DNA from: Thereva unica
Taxonomy: Eukaryota; Arthropoda; Insecta; Diptera; Therevidae
Direction: 5' to 3'
Assembly: GCA_949987705.1 (NCBI GenBank)
Contig: OX465281.1
Location: forward strand, 191,443,112 to 191,507,111
DNA length: 64,000 nt
Position 1 is the first letter of the stretch; every line of letters starts with the position of its first letter. This document shows positions 601 to 59,290 of the stretch, one piece after another. The translations under genes and the position numbers were made by a program. Below the pieces are notes generated by a model that was given only the letters and a program-made list of their open reading frames with translations, searched no databases and was not told where the DNA came from.

Positions 601-1640
601 TTGGAGCCAACCAATAGATGGCCGTTTTTGTAAATCAAATGCTTTACCAAACTAGTTGGGATGTGGGTTTGCGTTTGACTCCTTCGCTCCACACAATCAA
701 CTTCCCAGTAGTAAACGGAATAAACTGTCTTCTTACAAAATAGTAATCTGTTTAGCACTAGTAGGAAATAGATTGGCGACAGTCACGTAAATGGTGACAA
801 AGTAATCCTGAGAGAAGCTAATTCAAATAACTATAATAGTGGTTAATCTAAAAGATTGGTTTGTGGTTTGTTTTCTAACGTTCGGCACAACCAAATTCTC
901 TATGGTTTTCCCGAACATTAGAAAACATACATTTCCTTCGTATCTACTTCGTTTGCTACACTATAGCGAATTCGTATTGAGCGTGTTGAAGCGCCGCTGA
1001 CAAACTGGGAAGAGAATGACTTCATTTGAAAACTCCAAAGCTTACCGGAGACAGTATACTTGTCAGACTTGACCAAAAAGAACAAATTTTTCGGTAACTA
1101 CTGCAAATCCCGGGATGAGCCGGAATTTCTTGAAACTGTATCACGCGTAGAAAACAGTTTCCCGTCAAGAAAGTGCTGATCCAAGGTTTGAAAAATTCGC
1201 GCTGTTTGTAAAGGGTAACGAAATTTTTGCACGATTTTGAAAGGTTGTCAGATTTTGATAAGTGATATTTTGTTTTAAGGTTATCGCTGAGCAGAACCCA
1301 AAAAAGATCACTTCGTTTAGAACGGGTTTTATTCCATCGAGTTTATTAGATATTAGCAAAACTTGTCAATTTAAGGTCTTTCTGCCCCTATCCGAAGTTT
1401 TTCTATTTAAATAAAAAAAAGGCCCGACCGAATGCTATGAAATTTTCGGCACCTCAAAGTTGTCGATATAGTTTTTGGTTCGCGCGATATCGTGTAGTTA
1501 CAAAAAACACTTATTTCGTTAAAACCAAAAAACCGCTCGACCGAATATTATAAAAATCTTTTCAAATTATATTGTCGTTAATACGCTTCGCAAAGCACCT
1601 CAACTTCAGCCGTTAGGGCGTTTTGAAATTTTTTTGGTAG
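601..1640 (-). repeat. Dispersed family Rep-G, copy 1
   Basis: This stretch matches 23,775-24,720 in reverse complement over most of its length. Shared landmarks are CTAACGTTCGG, GATTACTTTGTCACC, ACTAGTTGGGATGTGGG and AACTTCCCAGTA. It includes one 147-bp unit (1,447-1,593) of the kind that is tandemly repeated at 2,276-2,918. No transposase-like frame is visible, so it is probably non-autonomous; its superfamily is unknown. Confidence 0.65.
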
Positions 1641-17499: not shown

Positions 17500-20097
17500 A
17501 TTTGTTACATTTCGAAGGACAGCTAAGATTCATGCTATACAACGAACTCGCCAGCCAACTTTTTCGCGGTTCTTCTTCTTTAAACTCCTTTAATCCCTCA
17601 TGGGACATAGGGCGGAAACAGTTGCCCTCCAGCGGACTCTGTTTTGCGCGACAGCTCTTAGCTCCGACCAGGATCTCCCAGTTGTTGCGGCTTCTTCTAG
17701 TTGGGTTCTCCTCCACGTTGTTCTAGGTCTTCCTACTCGACGGGCACCTTGCGGATTCCAGTCAAGGGCCTGTTGGGCTAGATTTTCGTTTTCGCGTCGC
17801 AAGGTGTGGCCAACCCAATTCCATTTCCTTCGCCTGATTTGGTCGTCTATCCTTTCTTGGCCGGCACGGCGCCATAGTTCTTCGTTTGAAATTCTATCCT
17901 GCCAGCGGATTTTTAGGATACGACGAAGGCATCTGTTGATGAAGACTTGTAGGCGCCCTGTTATGAATTGGGTGACTTTCCATGTTTCGCAACCGTACAA
18001 AATTACTGCCTTCACGTTGGAGTTGAACAGCCGCAATTTGGTGTTAGTGGAAATCACCGTTGATCTCCATATGTGGGACAGGCATGCATATGCGCCTCGT
18101 GCTTTATTTATTCTGGAACTGACGTCTTCTTCTGCCCCACCATTTTCGGTAATAATGCTACCGAGGTAGCAGCATTTATTTACCAGTTCCACGTCACGGT
18201 TATTCAGCGCTGTTCGTTCAATGGTGTTTGCATTTATCCGCATTTCTTTAGTTTTAGTCGGATTTAGCCTTAAGCCTGCTGGACTACTTTCTGTTGCCAA
18301 ATTGTTCAACATGTTTTTGAGGTCCTGATGTCTGTGGGCCAGCAAACAGATATCATCTGCGTAGTCGAGGTCCTTAAGGCGGTCTACCAAACCCCATTGT
18401 ATGCCGCCTGTTCGATTATCTAGAGCGCCGACAAGGATGTCATTTATTACTATAAGAAATAGTAATGGCGAAAGTAGGCATCCCTGTCGTACTCCTGAGC
18501 TCACCTCAAAGCTGTCGGATAATTTTCCATTATGGAGAACTCTGCATTTGGAATTGTTATATAGGGCTTTTATCAATTCTATTATTTTATCAGGCAGTCC
18601 ACGTCGCCGTAGTGCCTGCCAAATGAAGCTCCTATTAACCGAGTCGAACGCTTTCTCATAGTCTACGAAAGCAAGGTAAAGGGGGGATCGGAATTCAGTA
18701 GACTGCTCCACTATTATTCTCAAGGTGTTAATATGATCAATACAGGAGCGGCCCTTCCTGAATCCGGCCTGCTGCCTCCTAAGCGTTCGATCAACTGCCT
18801 CACTTATCATAGATAGTAATATATGGGACAAAATTTTGCCCACAGTAGATAATAAACCGATACCTCTCCAGTTGTCGCATATTGTTAGGTCCCCCTTTTT
18901 TGGTATTTTGACTATGATACCTTCCGTCCAATCCTCCGGAAAGGTACAGGTGTTCCATGCTATTTCTTGGATTGGCTGAAGCGCATCTGCTATGAGGCTT
19001 GAGTCGGCTTTCAACAATTCTGGCGGGATGCCATCTTTTCCTGCTGCTTTACCATTGGCCATCGCATGAATTGCGGTTACTATTTCCGTCTTGGATGGGG
19101 CCCGAGTGGCGATCCTTATTGGCTGTGCATTGTTGTTGTTTTCCTGAGGTTCCTGTGTAAGTGTACCATTCAGGGCGGCGAAGAAGTAATCTCTTCATCT
19201 TTGGAGTTGCTCTTCGTCGCTGCACAGCAGCCTTCCATCCGCACTCTTAACGGCATGCTTTTTAGTAGAGTGCTTTCCCGAGAGCTGTTTAGTGATTTGG
19301 TACAGCACCTTACTGTTGCCTGTGTTTGCCGCGTTTTCCGCTTTTTCTGCGAGCTCATTTATCTGCTGCCTTTTATCACGCCGGACACTTCTCTTAACCT
19401 CCCGATGTCATTGGGAGTATTCCCGTTCTAATTGGTGACGTATTTCCGGGTCGTTTGTAGAGTTTACGTTATTTTTTAGGGCTCTCCTGCGTTCTATTTT
19501 TTGCCAGGTTGTGTCCGAGATCCAGTGTTGCTGGTTTCTTTGGACATAACCGATGCTCGTTTCCGCAGTCGTCAATATTGCGTCCTACTCCACAGCTCTT
19601 CAATATTTGTGTCGTCAGAAACGTTGTGCTGGTTTAATATTTGTTGTAGGTTTCCAGCAAATTCCCGCTTTTCAACGCTCTCCCGCAGAAGGTCTACGTT
19701 GAACCGTCTACGGCTTATAGCATCGCGTTGTACGTTTCTGATTGCGGCGATTTTAAGGCGAATAGCTGCTACTACCAAATGGTGGTCGCTTCCAGTGTCT
19801 GTTCCCCTGAAACTCCTGACATCCTCAAGGATAGTTCTCCAGCTGCGGCTGACGGCCACATGATCTATCTGATTTCTCGTTCTACCATCGGGCGATACCC
19901 AGGTCTCTTTGTGTATCTTCTTGTGACAAAAGTAAGTTCCACCTACCATGAGTTGGTGGGAGCTACAGAAGTCAACGAAAAGCTCACCATTGTTATTGGT
20001 AACTTGGCTTAGACCTTGATTTCCAATTGTTTGTTCAAGGCCGGTGTTGTCACGGCCGATCTGTGCGTTTAAGTCACCCATTGGGCGGGCACACATT
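17500..20097 (-). mobile_element. RTE-like non-LTR retrotransposon, copy 1 (best-preserved RT)
   Basis: Minus strand. 19,572-20,096 is the C-terminal half of an APE-like endonuclease: GDLNAQIGRDN, THKETW-like IHKETWVSPDGRTRNQIDHV and GTDTGSDHHLVVAAI. A frameshifted linker at 19,063-19,571 is followed by a 490-codon RT frame (17,590-19,062). It carries KAAGKDGIPPELLK, FVDYEKAFDSVNR (catalytic Asp), GVRQGCLLSPLLFLIVINDI and DLDYADDICLLAH (catalytic DD), then the long post-RT tail with LKIRWQDRISNEELWRRAGQ and RRRKWNWVGHTLRR. The organisation and tail are typical of the RTE clade. The 5' end is truncated within the endonuclease, and the N-terminal catalytic residues of that domain are absent. 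The RT frame itself has no stop. Confidence 0.88.
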
Positions 20098-23774: not shown

Positions 23775-24720
23775 AACGACTTCGCTTAGGTGTCGTTCGA
23801 AGTGTATTAACGGAAATATGATCTGAAAAGATTTTTATAAAATTCGGTTGAACCGTTGTTTTGTTTAAACGACGTTCGTGATTTTTGTACCTGCGCGAAC
23901 CAAAAACTATATCGCCTTCTTCGAAGCGCCGAAAGAAGAAATAATATTAAGGAAAAATGCTCTGAAAAAATCCATAACATTCGATCGAGCCTTTTTTTGT
24001 TTAAATTGAAAAACTTCGGCTATGCGTCAGAAAGACCTTAAATTGTTAAGTTTTGTTAATATCTAATAAACTCGATGGAATGAGACCCGTTCTAAACGAG
24101 GTCATCTTTTTTTGGATTCTGCACAGCGACAGCTTTCCATCAAAACATCACTTGTCAAAATTCGATTCTCTTTAAAAATCGTGCAAACTTTACGTTACCC
24201 TTTACAAACATCGCGAATTTTTCAAACCTCGGATCAGCACTTTTTTGACGCGGAATTTTTTTCTACGTCCTACAGTTTAAGGAAACTGCGTTTCATCCCG
24301 GAATTTCCAGCAGTTACCGAAAAAATTGTCTGAAAGTACTTAACATTGATTAGTTTTGCTAATATCTCCGGAAAGTTTCGGAATTTCTAAATGAAATCAT
24401 TCGCCTCCCAGTTTATCAGCGGCGCTTCAATACGCTCAATAAGAATTCAAACACCCGCTTTAGTGTAGCGAACGCAGTATGAAGGAACTGTGTGTTTGCT
24501 AACGTTCGGGAAAAACAAATACTCTAGAAAAATCTTTCACGATTACTTTGTCACCAGTTCTGATACCAGTCAATTTCACACTAGTAGTAGACGTATTACT
24601 ATTTTGTAAGAAGTCAGTTTATTCAGTCTACGTTCATCATACTGGGAGGTTGATCGTGTGGACCGAAGGGGTCCAAACCACATCCCAACTAGTTTTATTT
24701 TATGTCCACTTTTTTGAAAA
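23775..24720 (+). repeat. Rep-G, copy 2
   Basis: Reverse complement of copy 1 at 601-1,640. It starts with one 146-bp-type unit (about 23,790-23,936, reversed), then AACTCGATGGAATGAGACCC, CTAACGTTCGGG and GATTACTTTGTCACCAGTTC, and ends with TACTGGGAGGTTGATCGTGT and CACATCCCAACTAGTTTTA. It follows the LINE-A poly-A tail directly, so LINE-A may have inserted at its edge. Confidence 0.65.
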
Positions 24721-39334: not shown

Positions 39335-40930
39335 CCCCCCAATAAATGGAATCTCTTTCTGTTGACGAGATTTTGACAGGTCTGAATAATCTTGACATAA
39401 AAACCGGTGATGGTCCCAACAATCTCCCTACTATTTTCTTGCAGTGCTGCTCAAAAGATATCGCATTTCCTCTTTATCTCATCTTCAACAAATCTTTATC
39501 ATTAGGAAAGTTGCTTTGGAAGAAATCCTACCTAAGGCCAATCTATAAATCCAGTGATAAGCACTCGATGGACAACTATAGAGGCATTGCCATTTTATCA
39601 ATTTCTAAGCTTTTTGAAAAGCTAGTTTATGACAGGTTTGCCCCTCTTATCGACCCATACCTAAACGAACAACAACACGGTTTTCGAAAAGGGCATTCAA
39701 CAACTTCTAACCTTATGGTCTTAATCTCCGAAATGCTTTGCGGTGTGGATGGCTATCAATTGGATGCTGTGTACACTGATTTTAGCAAGGCCTTCGATCG
39801 AGTGGACCACGCCTTCCTAATTGCAAAATTATTAAAGTTTGGAATATCAGGCTCTGTCCTGGAATGGTTAAAATCATATCTGAACGTAAGAACACAGGTT
39901 ATCAGATTCCAAGGATTTCTATCTAATGAGATCGAAGTAACCTCTGGCGATACCCAGGGTAGCCATCTTGGTCCTCTTCTTTTCAATCTTTTCATCTCCG
40001 ATCTATCGGAAAAACTAATAAATACTCCACATATCTTTTACGCGGATGATCTCAAAATTTATTGTGCCATTGAAACCCAAACTGATCGTTTCCTTCATGC
40101 AGACCAAACTGAATTCCTGTACAAGATTGGTGCACCACGAACAAAGCATAATGTTGAATCAGGTAGATCATATCGTAGATCTAGGTGTCGTCCTAGAAAA
40201 AAACTCAATTTCAACCTACACTACGATAATATTACTGCCAGAGCCAAAAAACATCTTGGTTTCATAAAGAGGAGAGCCAAACAAGAGTTCGATAATGTAT
40301 GGGTCACGAAAACACTCTTCTGTTCTCTAGTCCGCCCTATATGCATGTCATATCTGGGATCCCATAATCCAAGTAAGTAGCAGGAGGATCGAATCCGTTC
40401 AAAAGAGATATCTCGTTTTCGCCCTGAGCCATCTACACAACCCCCATGACTACCAAACCCTACCACACAACTTGCACACTCACAAAGTGCTTGATCTCAT
40501 GCCGTTATCTAGCAGGGGAAAACTGCTCATATCTGGCCTTGCCTTTGATGACCTAAGTGGAAAGCTTCAAGTGCAGTTTCTGTCGGACAAGATCAAATTC
40601 AATGATGTAGTCCAACCCACACGGCACACTAAATTACTTAGGGAATATCCCCAGCGTACCGATTACGCTAGGAACGAGCCCATTAACAGATGCTATATGG
40701 TTTTCAATAGTCATAGTTCCTGTTTCTCCCCCTTCAATCAACAAGGCATCCTATAAGAAAATACTCAGATCGATACTAATCTAGGGGGAGTTATCTTGAC
40801 AATAGTTTCAGTAGTTGTTAATCAATTATTATTAAAAGACTGTTTTACTACTTTGTTTTTTTTTTAATTTAAGTGTCATTTTTGTTGTACTTATTTTAAG
40901 TGTGCCTTGTTTGGCGAATAAATAAATAAA
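39335..40930 (+). mobile_element. LINE-B copy 2, 5'-truncated non-LTR retrotransposon
   Basis: A 344-codon frame (39,346-40,380) holds LKKSYLRPIYKSSDKHSMDN-like entry residues, QQHGFRKGHSTTSNLMVLIS, AVYTDFSKAFDRVDHAFLIA (catalytic Asp), TSGDTQGSHLGPLLFNLFIS (with DTQG where most relatives have VPQG), and FYADDLKIYC (catalytic DD). A frameshift near 40,110 moves the rest into other frames. The post-RT tail ends at 40,472-40,756. The 3' UTR ends with GAATAAATAAATAAAC near 40,930. Same family as 14,700-15,770. The N-terminal endonuclease is absent. Confidence 0.87.
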
Positions 40931-48299: not shown

Positions 48300-49903
48300 C
48301 AAGTGCCTCAAGGAGCTCGATTCCAATAAATCCGCTGGCCCCGATAATATGCCCCCTATGGTTCTTTAAAAATGTGCTTCACCTTTGACTAAACCTCTGC
48401 GCAAACTCTACGCCCTTTCATACTTCTCCGGAGTTTTCCCTGCCCCTGCCTAGCCTATCGCGAAAATAGATGACTCCAGCGACCCCTCTAACTACCGCCC
48501 AATGGCAATCACTTCTATTCTCTCCAAAATCAAGAAGACAATAATAAACAGAAAGCTTATGAAATATCTTGAATGCAACCAAATATTGGATGACAAGCTA
48601 CGGCTTTAGATCTAAAAGATCTACTGGCGACCTCCTTGTGTGCCAATCTGAGCACCTCTACCAAAACCTTCGTTTTGGTGAATTCGTCCCGGTTACTCTC
48701 CAAGGCCTTTGATAGAGTATGGCTCCCCGCTCTATTGAGTAAATTACAAGCTATTGGTATAGACTTTATTCTAAAGAATTGGATTGAGAGTTTCCGTTCT
48801 GACCGTTCAATCAAGGTAGTATTGGACGGCGTCGAATCCAATCGCCACATCATTTATGCAGGCGTTCCCCAGGGATCAATTGTATCACCATCTCTCTTCG
48901 TAGTTTTTAGAAATAACCTGCTCTCAATCCCGTCCAACTCACTTCACAGCTTTGCTGATGACAGTAGTCTGCGTTACTCGTATAGCTTCGAAAAAGCAAG
49001 ACAAGCACGAGCCAGACCTTGTCTGCTTGGTCGTGAACTTATGTCCATTTCAGACAACAGGGATATAAATCTGATTCTAGATTGGGGCCACAAGAATCAT
49101 GCCGAATTCAACGCACGGAAAACAAAATACTGTCTCTTCTCTAAGAAAACGCGCTCCTCAATTCCTCCCGTTACAGTGGACACTCTAGAACTGATGGCAG
49201 AACCATCTCCCAATGTCCTTGGCATAACATTAACTGAAGATCTGCGTTGGAGTAATCACATCTTCCAAATCGCTAAACAAGCATCTCATGCTTGGGATTC
49301 CTTAAAAGATGCAATTTCCTGCTTCAACCGTTGGCCAGGGCTATAATCTACAAAGCTTACATTCAGCCCCGCCTCGAATTCAACTCGTATCTCTGGGCAG
49401 GGGTACCGAGTACCACCTTATCGTGGCTGGACAAGGTGCAAAACCGCGCCCTCCAACTCATGCAGGAATGTAGCGATGAAATTTTCTGGTGAAATTCTAC
49501 CGTATCTACCATAACGACTGTTCCACCGAAATATATAACCTCCTGCCTCCACGGCAATGTTTTTCCTCCAACAGAAGACTAGCCCTTTCGGCTCATCCTC
49601 ATTAACTACAGCCCTTATTTTCACGCACACTATTTCAGTTTAGAAATTCGTTCTTTTCGAGAAAAGCTCGACTGTGTAACAACCTCCTACAGTCAGTATT
49701 CCCGAACTCATACAACATCCAAGAGTTCAAACGTAAGGTTCATCTCCATCTCCTCAGGCAATCGCTAGACTCACTTTAATCTAGTTTATCCTTTCTCTAT
49801 CCTTCGAGCTGAGCTTGCTACCGGTCATCTGATCTTAACGTGTACGACATGACGGACTGGTAGTACAAAGGGTGACATCTGAGCTTAGACTTACATATAA
49901 AAA
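48300..49903 (+). mobile_element. LINE-A copy 3, 5'-truncated non-LTR retrotransposon
   Basis: Starts at KCLKELDSNKSAGPDN. The main frame (48,636-49,346) has LSKAFDRVWLPALLSKLQAI, GVPQGSIVSPSLFVVFRNNL and FADDSSLRYSYSFE, then ILDWGHKNHAEFNARKTKYC. After a frameshift, 49,292-49,492 holds GFLKRCNFLLQPLARAIIYK. The 3' end is TAGTACAAAGGGTGACATCT with ACATATAAAAACAAAA. It lacks the long poly-C tract seen in copies 1 and 2. Stops and frameshifts make it inactive, but the RT catalytic residues are all still visible. Confidence 0.88.
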
Positions 49904-57861: not shown

Positions 57862-59290
57862 TATTTCTTGCTACCGCACTGGTTCTGATACTAGTCAATT
57901 TCCCACTATAGTCCATTCAAAACGCGCGTTATGGTGTTCCAAAATAACACCGTTAAGAAAATCGAACCCTAAACGTTTTTGCGGTCGCTGATCACGAAAA
58001 TCGAGGTCCCGCGGTCCTAAAACATGGGCGTCACCCCTAAAAATGCAAAAAACACCCATTTTTAGGGTGTTTTCGCGATTATTTCAATAATAATGAAAAC
58101 TAATGCGATGAAATGCACTTTTTTTAATATTTATTTGCGAAGGTGGTTGATTTGTACTAAATTAAGGCGAACTTTATGATAAGGGGTAGTCCTAAAGGGT
58201 TGAAACTACCCCTAAATCGGCCAAAAATGGAAAAAATTGTAAATTTTTTTTTTCAAGTTTATGCTTCAAATTCGATTGTGGGCGTACTGTCAGGCAAAAA
58301 TAAATTATTTTCAACCCTTAAGGGGTTAAAACTACCCCTACTATAATAAAAACAACTTTATATAAAAAAAATTGCAAACATTTTTTTTTGCTTTTTGTTT
58401 GAAATTTGGTTCAAAAGGTATTATCAGCAAAAAAATTAATTTTTTCAACCCTTAAGGGGGTAAAACTACCCCTACATTAAAATTGTAATGAAATATTTCT
58501 CAATATATTTTTTATTTTTTTTTCTCTTTAGGGGTATTTTAACCTCTGTATAAAGGGGTTTATAGTGGAATTTTCCAAATGTTTTAATGATTAAAAATGG
58601 AAAAAAGAATTTAAAAGCAAAACAATAAATTTTAATTTGTTTCAATTAGATACAATTTTAATGTAGGGGTAGTTCTACCCCCTTAAGGGTTGAAAAAAAT
58701 ATTTTTTTTGCTGATAATACCTATTGAACCAAATTTAAAACAAAAAGCAAACAAAAATTTTTGCAATTTTTTAATATATAGTTGATTTTTATTATTGTAG
58801 GGGTAGTTTTAACCCCTTAAGGGTTGAAAATAATTTATTTTTGCCTGACAGCACGCCCACAATCGAATTTGAAGCATAAATTTGAAAAAAAAAATTACAA
58901 TTTTTTCCATTTTTGGCCGATTTAGGGGTAGTTTCAACCCTTTAGGACTACCCCTTATCATAAAGTTCGCCTTAATTTAGTACAAATCAACCACCTTCGC
59001 AAATAAATATTAAAAAAGTGCATTTCATCGCATTCGTTTTCATTATTATTGAAATAATCGCGAAAACACCCTAAAAAGGGGTGTTTTTTGCATTTTTAGG
59101 GGTGACGCCCATGTTTTAGGACCGCGGGACTCCGATTTTCGTGATCAGCGACCCCAAAAACGTTTAGGGTTTGATTTTCTTAACGGTGTTATTTTGGAAC
59201 ACCCCCCCCGCGTTTTGAATGGACTACTAGTGCTAAACGTATTACTAATTTCTAAAAAGACAGTTTATTCCGTTTACGTATCATACTGGT
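57862..59290. repeat. Rep-G terminal fragment split by the hairpin element
   Basis: 57,885-57,908 (CTGGTTCTGATACTAGTCAA, TTTCCCACTA) and 59,227-59,290 (CTAGTGCTAAACGTATTACT, CAGTTTATTCCGTTTACGT) are continuous in the other Rep-G copies at 757 (reversed) and 24,555. They act as a filled-site/empty-site comparison for the hairpin. Confidence 0.75.
57909..59226. mobile_element. Giant hairpin (foldback) element, 1,318 bp, CTA target duplication
   Basis: Two arms of about 575 bp (57,909-58,486 and 58,651-59,226) are near-perfect reverse complements, separated by a loop of about 165 bp. Ends are TAGTCCATTCAAAACG, and CTA is duplicated at 57,906-57,908 and 59,227-59,229, confirmed against empty sites in other Rep-G copies. 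Each arm carries three modules of the type CCTTAAGGGGTTAAAACTAC (58,311, 58,445 and an outer variant at 58,181, mirrored at 58,661, 58,797, 58,921). Near the ends AGGGGTGACGCCCATG and its mirror occur. No reading frame is visible. The superfamily is not assigned; a 3-bp duplication would fit PIF/Harbinger or CACTA-like elements among others. Confidence 0.92.

Follow-up and report, generated by a model that had tools for sequence, protein, structure and literature searches.

The hairpin at positions 57909-59226 of the window, the stretch of 64,000 nucleotides of Thereva unica DNA analysed here, was read directly as a real foldback of 1318 bp, and it is very probably a copy of a very abundant non-autonomous foldback-type DNA transposon family that is presumably moved in trans. 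The element has defined ends, a target-site duplication with an empty site, modular arms and no coding capacity, and its ends are present in large number in the genome. Two features of the foldback class were found: very long, internally repetitive inverted repeats extending over most of the element, and an insertion that left both a duplication and an empty site. The coordinates of the original prediction were exact, with CTA on both sides (Table 1).

Table 1. Features of the foldback element and of its empty sites in the window.
Feature	Position	Strand	Remarks
Whole foldback element	57909..59226	.	1318 bp
Left arm	57909..58487	+	579 nt
Right arm	58651..59226	-	576 nt; 95.3% identity to left arm on other strand
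Centre between arms	58488..58650	.	about 160 bp
Terminal end TAGTCCATTCAAAACG	57909..57924	+	16 bp
Opposite terminal end TAGTCCATTCAAAACG	59211..59226	-	
Target-site duplication CTA, left	57906..57908	.	
Target-site duplication CTA, right	59227..59229	.	
Subterminal small inverted repeat GGTGTT-CCAAAAT-AACACC	57933..57951	+	in minimum-energy and centroid DNA fold
Left-arm box 1	58191..58200	+	CCTAAAGGGT, 2 mismatches
Left-arm box 2	58316..58325	+	CCTTAAGGGG
Left-arm box 3	58450..58459	+	CCTTAAGGGG
Right-arm box 3	58679..58688	-	
Right-arm box 2	58813..58822	-	
Right-arm box 1	58937..58946	-	2 mismatches
Flanking-repeat relative without insertion (empty site)	24557..24645	+	85% identity to joined flanks
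Second flanking-repeat relative without insertion (empty site)	711..769	-	90% identity to joined flanks

The arms had been described as almost exact reverse complements. Long inverted arms were indeed present, and their identity was 95.3% with gaps counted in the alignment of 579 against 576 nt, about 5% of the positions differing; the inverted repeats I1-I4 were 92-97% complementary. Boxes of the CCTTAAGGGG type, a sequence nearly identical to its own reverse complement, were found as expected at three per arm, the outermost box of each arm containing two mismatches, and an additional weak match at 58525 lies within the centre. The spacing of the arm modules is 126-135 bp. The element was said to lack an open reading frame, and its longest stop-to-stop frame is one of 61 codons.

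The empty site and the 3-bp CTA duplication had both been anticipated; the duplication flanks the window element, and the empty site was seen in two sequences related to the flanking repeat that have no insertion. When the window flanks were joined with a single CTA, they aligned free of gaps across the junction to both relatives. In that at 711-769 a C-to-T difference produces the letters CTACTA by coincidence, yet no base has been added.

The exact 16-bp end TAGTCCATTCAAAACG gave 1686 forward and 1696 reverse matches, in all 3382 in the 910-Mb genome, while the reversed-sequence control of the same 16 bp gave none in that genome; the matches are therefore not due to chance. Same-ended copies, whose absence from the genome had been named in advance as speaking against the prediction, are thus numerous, although the genome-wide count includes ends lying within another repeat, as in 5 of 18 single-end regions. 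The ends that were read make up about 3% of the exact ends and form a local sample, nearly all from a single contig within its initial 40.4 Mb, where all 100 listed exact ends are located. Of these 100, 66 belong to 33 complete copies and the other 34 are single ends; 19 of the single ends were covered by 18 longer regions that were read, and one more (L044) was read with 1 kb on each side.

Together with the window copy and with L050, L065 and L054, in which the far end is inexact, the complete copies gave a set of 37 delimited copies. An exact 3-bp duplication was found in 33 of them, against 3.1% expected from mismatched pairing; it was missing in L011b, L033, L039 and L054, and duplications of 4-7 bp occurred in none of the 37. 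The duplicated triplets were varied, with 15 kinds when strands were merged (TAA/TTA in 6 of 33, ATA in 4), and their surroundings are weakly palindromic, with a weak preference for CY-TWA-RG. C was enriched at each of the two positions that precede the triplet, with G enriched after it (29/66 and 28/66, p 9e-6 and 3e-5), in a test with columns picked post hoc, strands folded together and a C frequency of 0.2 assumed. The duplication in 33/37 copies, the empty site and the 3382 ends bear out the prediction of a transposable foldback-type element with defined ends.

The structure was compared across a tiled set of 34 copies of 136-4357 bp, all selected through exact ends. Pieces of one arm, in either orientation and mostly rearranged, were present in all 34, an arm match in a single piece being restricted to three copies (L025, L011a and L028), and a unit of about 437 bp was frequently repeated. 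Of the 33 other tiled copies, 15 contain, in one orientation or the other, a match to the centre of the window element; the identities are 71-95%, and reach 88% or above in eight of these copies. A degenerate inner copy of the end was found at 17 joints, distributed over 14 of the 34 copies. The commonest form, TAGTTCATTGAAAACT, accounted for 7 of these 17 inner ends, and the intact 16-mer for none. Contrary to such decayed inner ends, L060, which is outside the tiled set, contains two intact ends 414 bp apart.

The similarity of the arms had been ascribed to youth of the copy or to gene conversion. Over the first 300 bp the median within-copy identity was 94.6% (27 copies, 7 of the 34 being left out as shorter than 640 bp), about equal to the between-copy identity of 93.9%. 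In a tree of 48 arms, from which ten of the 34 copies were left out as short or asymmetric, mate arms were sisters in none of 24 pairs; the tree is weakly resolved, with strong support on just 5 of 45 inner branches. The window right arm clusters with the left arms of L015 and L019 and the right arms of L031 and L040 (support 97). The left arm stands apart from it, its closest neighbour in the tree being the L019 right arm. This placement indicates that what was copied was a master whose two arms differed slightly. Since identity within copies is about that between copies and mates are not sisters, the likeness of the arms is chiefly explained by copies diverging from a near-palindromic master and not by repair inside each copy. 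Gene conversion or youth as a family-wide cause is unsupported by the identities and the tree. The earlier explanation was half right for the window copy itself, which is on the young side: within the first 300 bp its two arms are 96.3% identical, and no more than 3 of the 52 foreign arms come closer than its own mate.

These comparisons also bear on two other explanations of the hairpin. Palindromes are in general prone to mis-joins, and a mis-joined read could produce one in an assembly; for the window hairpin such an artefact is extremely improbable. It is hardly an assembly mirror because the arms differ by about 5%; moreover, 33/37 copies have a triplet duplication of their own, and two places lacking the insertion align with the flanks of the window copy once these are joined. 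The potential to fold as RNA, also part of the original prediction, was confirmed in silico: the sense strand is predicted to form one long hairpin with a minimum free energy of -921 kcal/mol (without a shuffle control at such length). This would suit a hairpin useful to the host as a source of double-stranded RNA and maintained for RNA interference. However, any such palindrome would give a comparable fold, the family copies are dispersed, diverged and rearranged, and arm identity is not maintained within copies, which makes a host function of this kind very unlikely. As single-stranded DNA, the outer 300 nt folded no better than shuffles (z -0.60).

As regards a helper for the transposon family, none of the 33 pairs of family ends checked for frame length was found to enclose a transposase. 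The frame scan near ends covered ten long frames, a part of all frames, at 11 other loci or fewer. Pfam assigned to these ten retroelement domains, piggyBac-type and Mutator-type transposase and a Plus-3 protein, one frame having no match, and none of the ten was placed between paired family ends. Several candidates for an autonomous partner were rejected. L020, the longest element (4357 bp), has a 510-codon frame that is a nested Gypsy pol fragment. The Gypsy-type fragment (L020:1223-3043) comprises both the zinc finger and the core of the integrase. A direct repeat of 67 bp borders it on either side, and some 5 bp of the arm are doubled, as after insertion of an LTR element. The interiors of L016 (2681 bp) and of other copies gave short frames only among the frames listed. 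A 6.9-kb pair at L066 with TTT on both sides was discarded, its left end lying inside an open frame and differing at 4 of 16 bases, and L051, considered as a short-TIR form, has an interior that belongs to a second foldback-like repeat. Apart from these rejected candidates, a Mutator-type transposase fragment is located at L062 about 4 kb from an end; no second end was found at this locus, so that the fragment is neither tied to the family nor rejected.

Other mobile sequences were noticed at these loci and in the window. A 950-aa frame in L051 is LINE-like by eye, and a tRNA-like stretch just inside the element end at L066:9190-9260, minus strand, is by eye perhaps a tRNA-derived SINE. The window contains reverse transcriptase fragments (Pfam RVT_1) at 17590-19062 (-), 39346-40380 (+) and 48636-49346 (+).

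The second foldback-like repeat was observed at L070:1086-2222, with arms of about 234 bp that are 99% alike and the end AGTCCATGGAAATGG, one such end being present also in L064. No clear duplication was found at the L070 repeat. Its TAGTCCAT start is, on one side, common to the family of the window element, and through this common start the two may share a helper. The stretch of L051 that matches the interior of the second repeat gave 42 matches including itself, with 40 scored among 1133 first-look candidates. Five single ends (L049, L055, L056, L059 and L064) lie within another repeat, which includes a piece of the foldback family with its end. This repeat begins TGGTGAATTTACACG after TTA or TAA and is young, the five being 97.6-99.4% alike over 0.5-1 kb, with one part of L059 at 92-95%. 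Beyond the foldback end L049, L055 and L056 share more than 200 bp, and L064 stops exactly at the end.

The 3-bp duplication distinguishes the family from the foldback systems with which it shares its architecture. FB/NOF of Drosophila has foldback arms built from short repeats, which resemble the arms found here in a comparison by description rather than by sequence, and it differs in producing 9-bp duplications. In the P superfamily the duplications are 7-8 bp, a length different from the 3 bp of the present family. The P-superfamily element Galileo of Drosophila has long foldback-like TIRs with internal repeats, as here, and these contain several footprinted transposase binding sites (PMC3688188). 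Tetris of Drosophila virilis, assigned to Mutator by its authors, is similar in being non-autonomous, in the long TIRs with internal tandem repeats, in the many rearranged forms and in that its transposase was not found; its duplications are 8-10 bp and not 3 bp (PMC4079207). Likewise Tm1, a Mutator/Foldback element of root-knot nematodes, is described with composite TIRs of variable length in several structural groups, and differs from the present family by its 9-bp duplications, associated with a Mutator-type (Phantom) transposase (PMC3169594). The 8-10 bp of Mutator foldbacks was not observed in our 37 copies, where a longer duplication would include the 3-bp and 4-7-bp counts given above. 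The 3-bp duplication thus fits neither Mutator nor P-type foldbacks.

The classic PIF/Harbinger duplication is 3 bp long and nearly always TWA. A PIF/Harbinger-type transposase of the PHIS group could be the helper, with the family as a relaxed-target derivative, a possibility which we regard as rather unlikely. It agrees with the length of the duplication, with the AT-rich centre of the triplets, their TWA tendency and weak palindromic context, and with the abundance of Harbinger DDE domains in the genome (150 scored among 5102 first-look candidates). The length fits, but TTA or TAA was found in just 6/33 duplications, so the TWA rule does not hold; none of the five listed Harbinger hits on C1 below 40.3 Mb was within 5 kb of the 100 listed exact ends (by eye), and the two Harbinger loci examined, L067 and L068 (3.5 kb each), gave weak end matches with 3-4 mismatches in 14. 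The Harbinger domains, 150 of them scored, are often encoded in uninterrupted frames of 200-486 codons. Duplications of 0-4 bp are reported for the PHIS group (PMC10045372), which agrees with such a helper.

A helper from another 3-bp superfamily, such as Zator, Academ or a CACTA-like lineage, or from one not yet described, is somewhat less likely than not, and is consistent with a 3-bp duplication of varied sequence. Academ transposase gives 3-4-bp duplications, and on length alone would fit. CACTA/EnSpm elements start with CACTR, which speaks against this lineage as the ends here read TAGTCC. Zator is reported to produce 3-bp duplications, the length found in the family (PMC10045372). Against Zator, Pfam PF07592 (ISAzo13, the bacterial counterpart) gave 0 matches, a result that says little since the control was silent in 14 of 14 genomes.

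For the foldback family as a transposon moved in trans, we infer a cut-and-paste mechanism in which a putative transposase encoded elsewhere would probably recognise the outer TAGTCCATTCAAAACG end. By analogy with Galileo, the repeated arm modules are perhaps extra binding sites for it. The element would be excised and then inserted at staggered cuts 3 bp apart, and this stagger would duplicate 3 bp, whose sequence is relaxed apart from the weak CY-TWA-RG preference. Length variants would arise via duplication or inversion of arm units at recurrent joints, where the decayed inner end would prevent the transposase from cutting within the element.

No foldback family with 3-bp duplications was found in the foldback literature searched, which is not proof of absence in print, and the letters of the end, sought as four 14-letter strings, were not found in the literature searched. 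With low confidence it may be proposed that the family belongs to a large foldback lineage whose transposase is outside Mutator and P, and perhaps undescribed, and in which decayed inner ends at recurrent joints let the arm units multiply while sparing the element internal cuts. In a foldback family of high copy number with 3-bp duplications, one would see the same architecture built around another kind of transposase, and its series of arm lengths together with the decayed inner ends offers a way to test how foldback arms grow.
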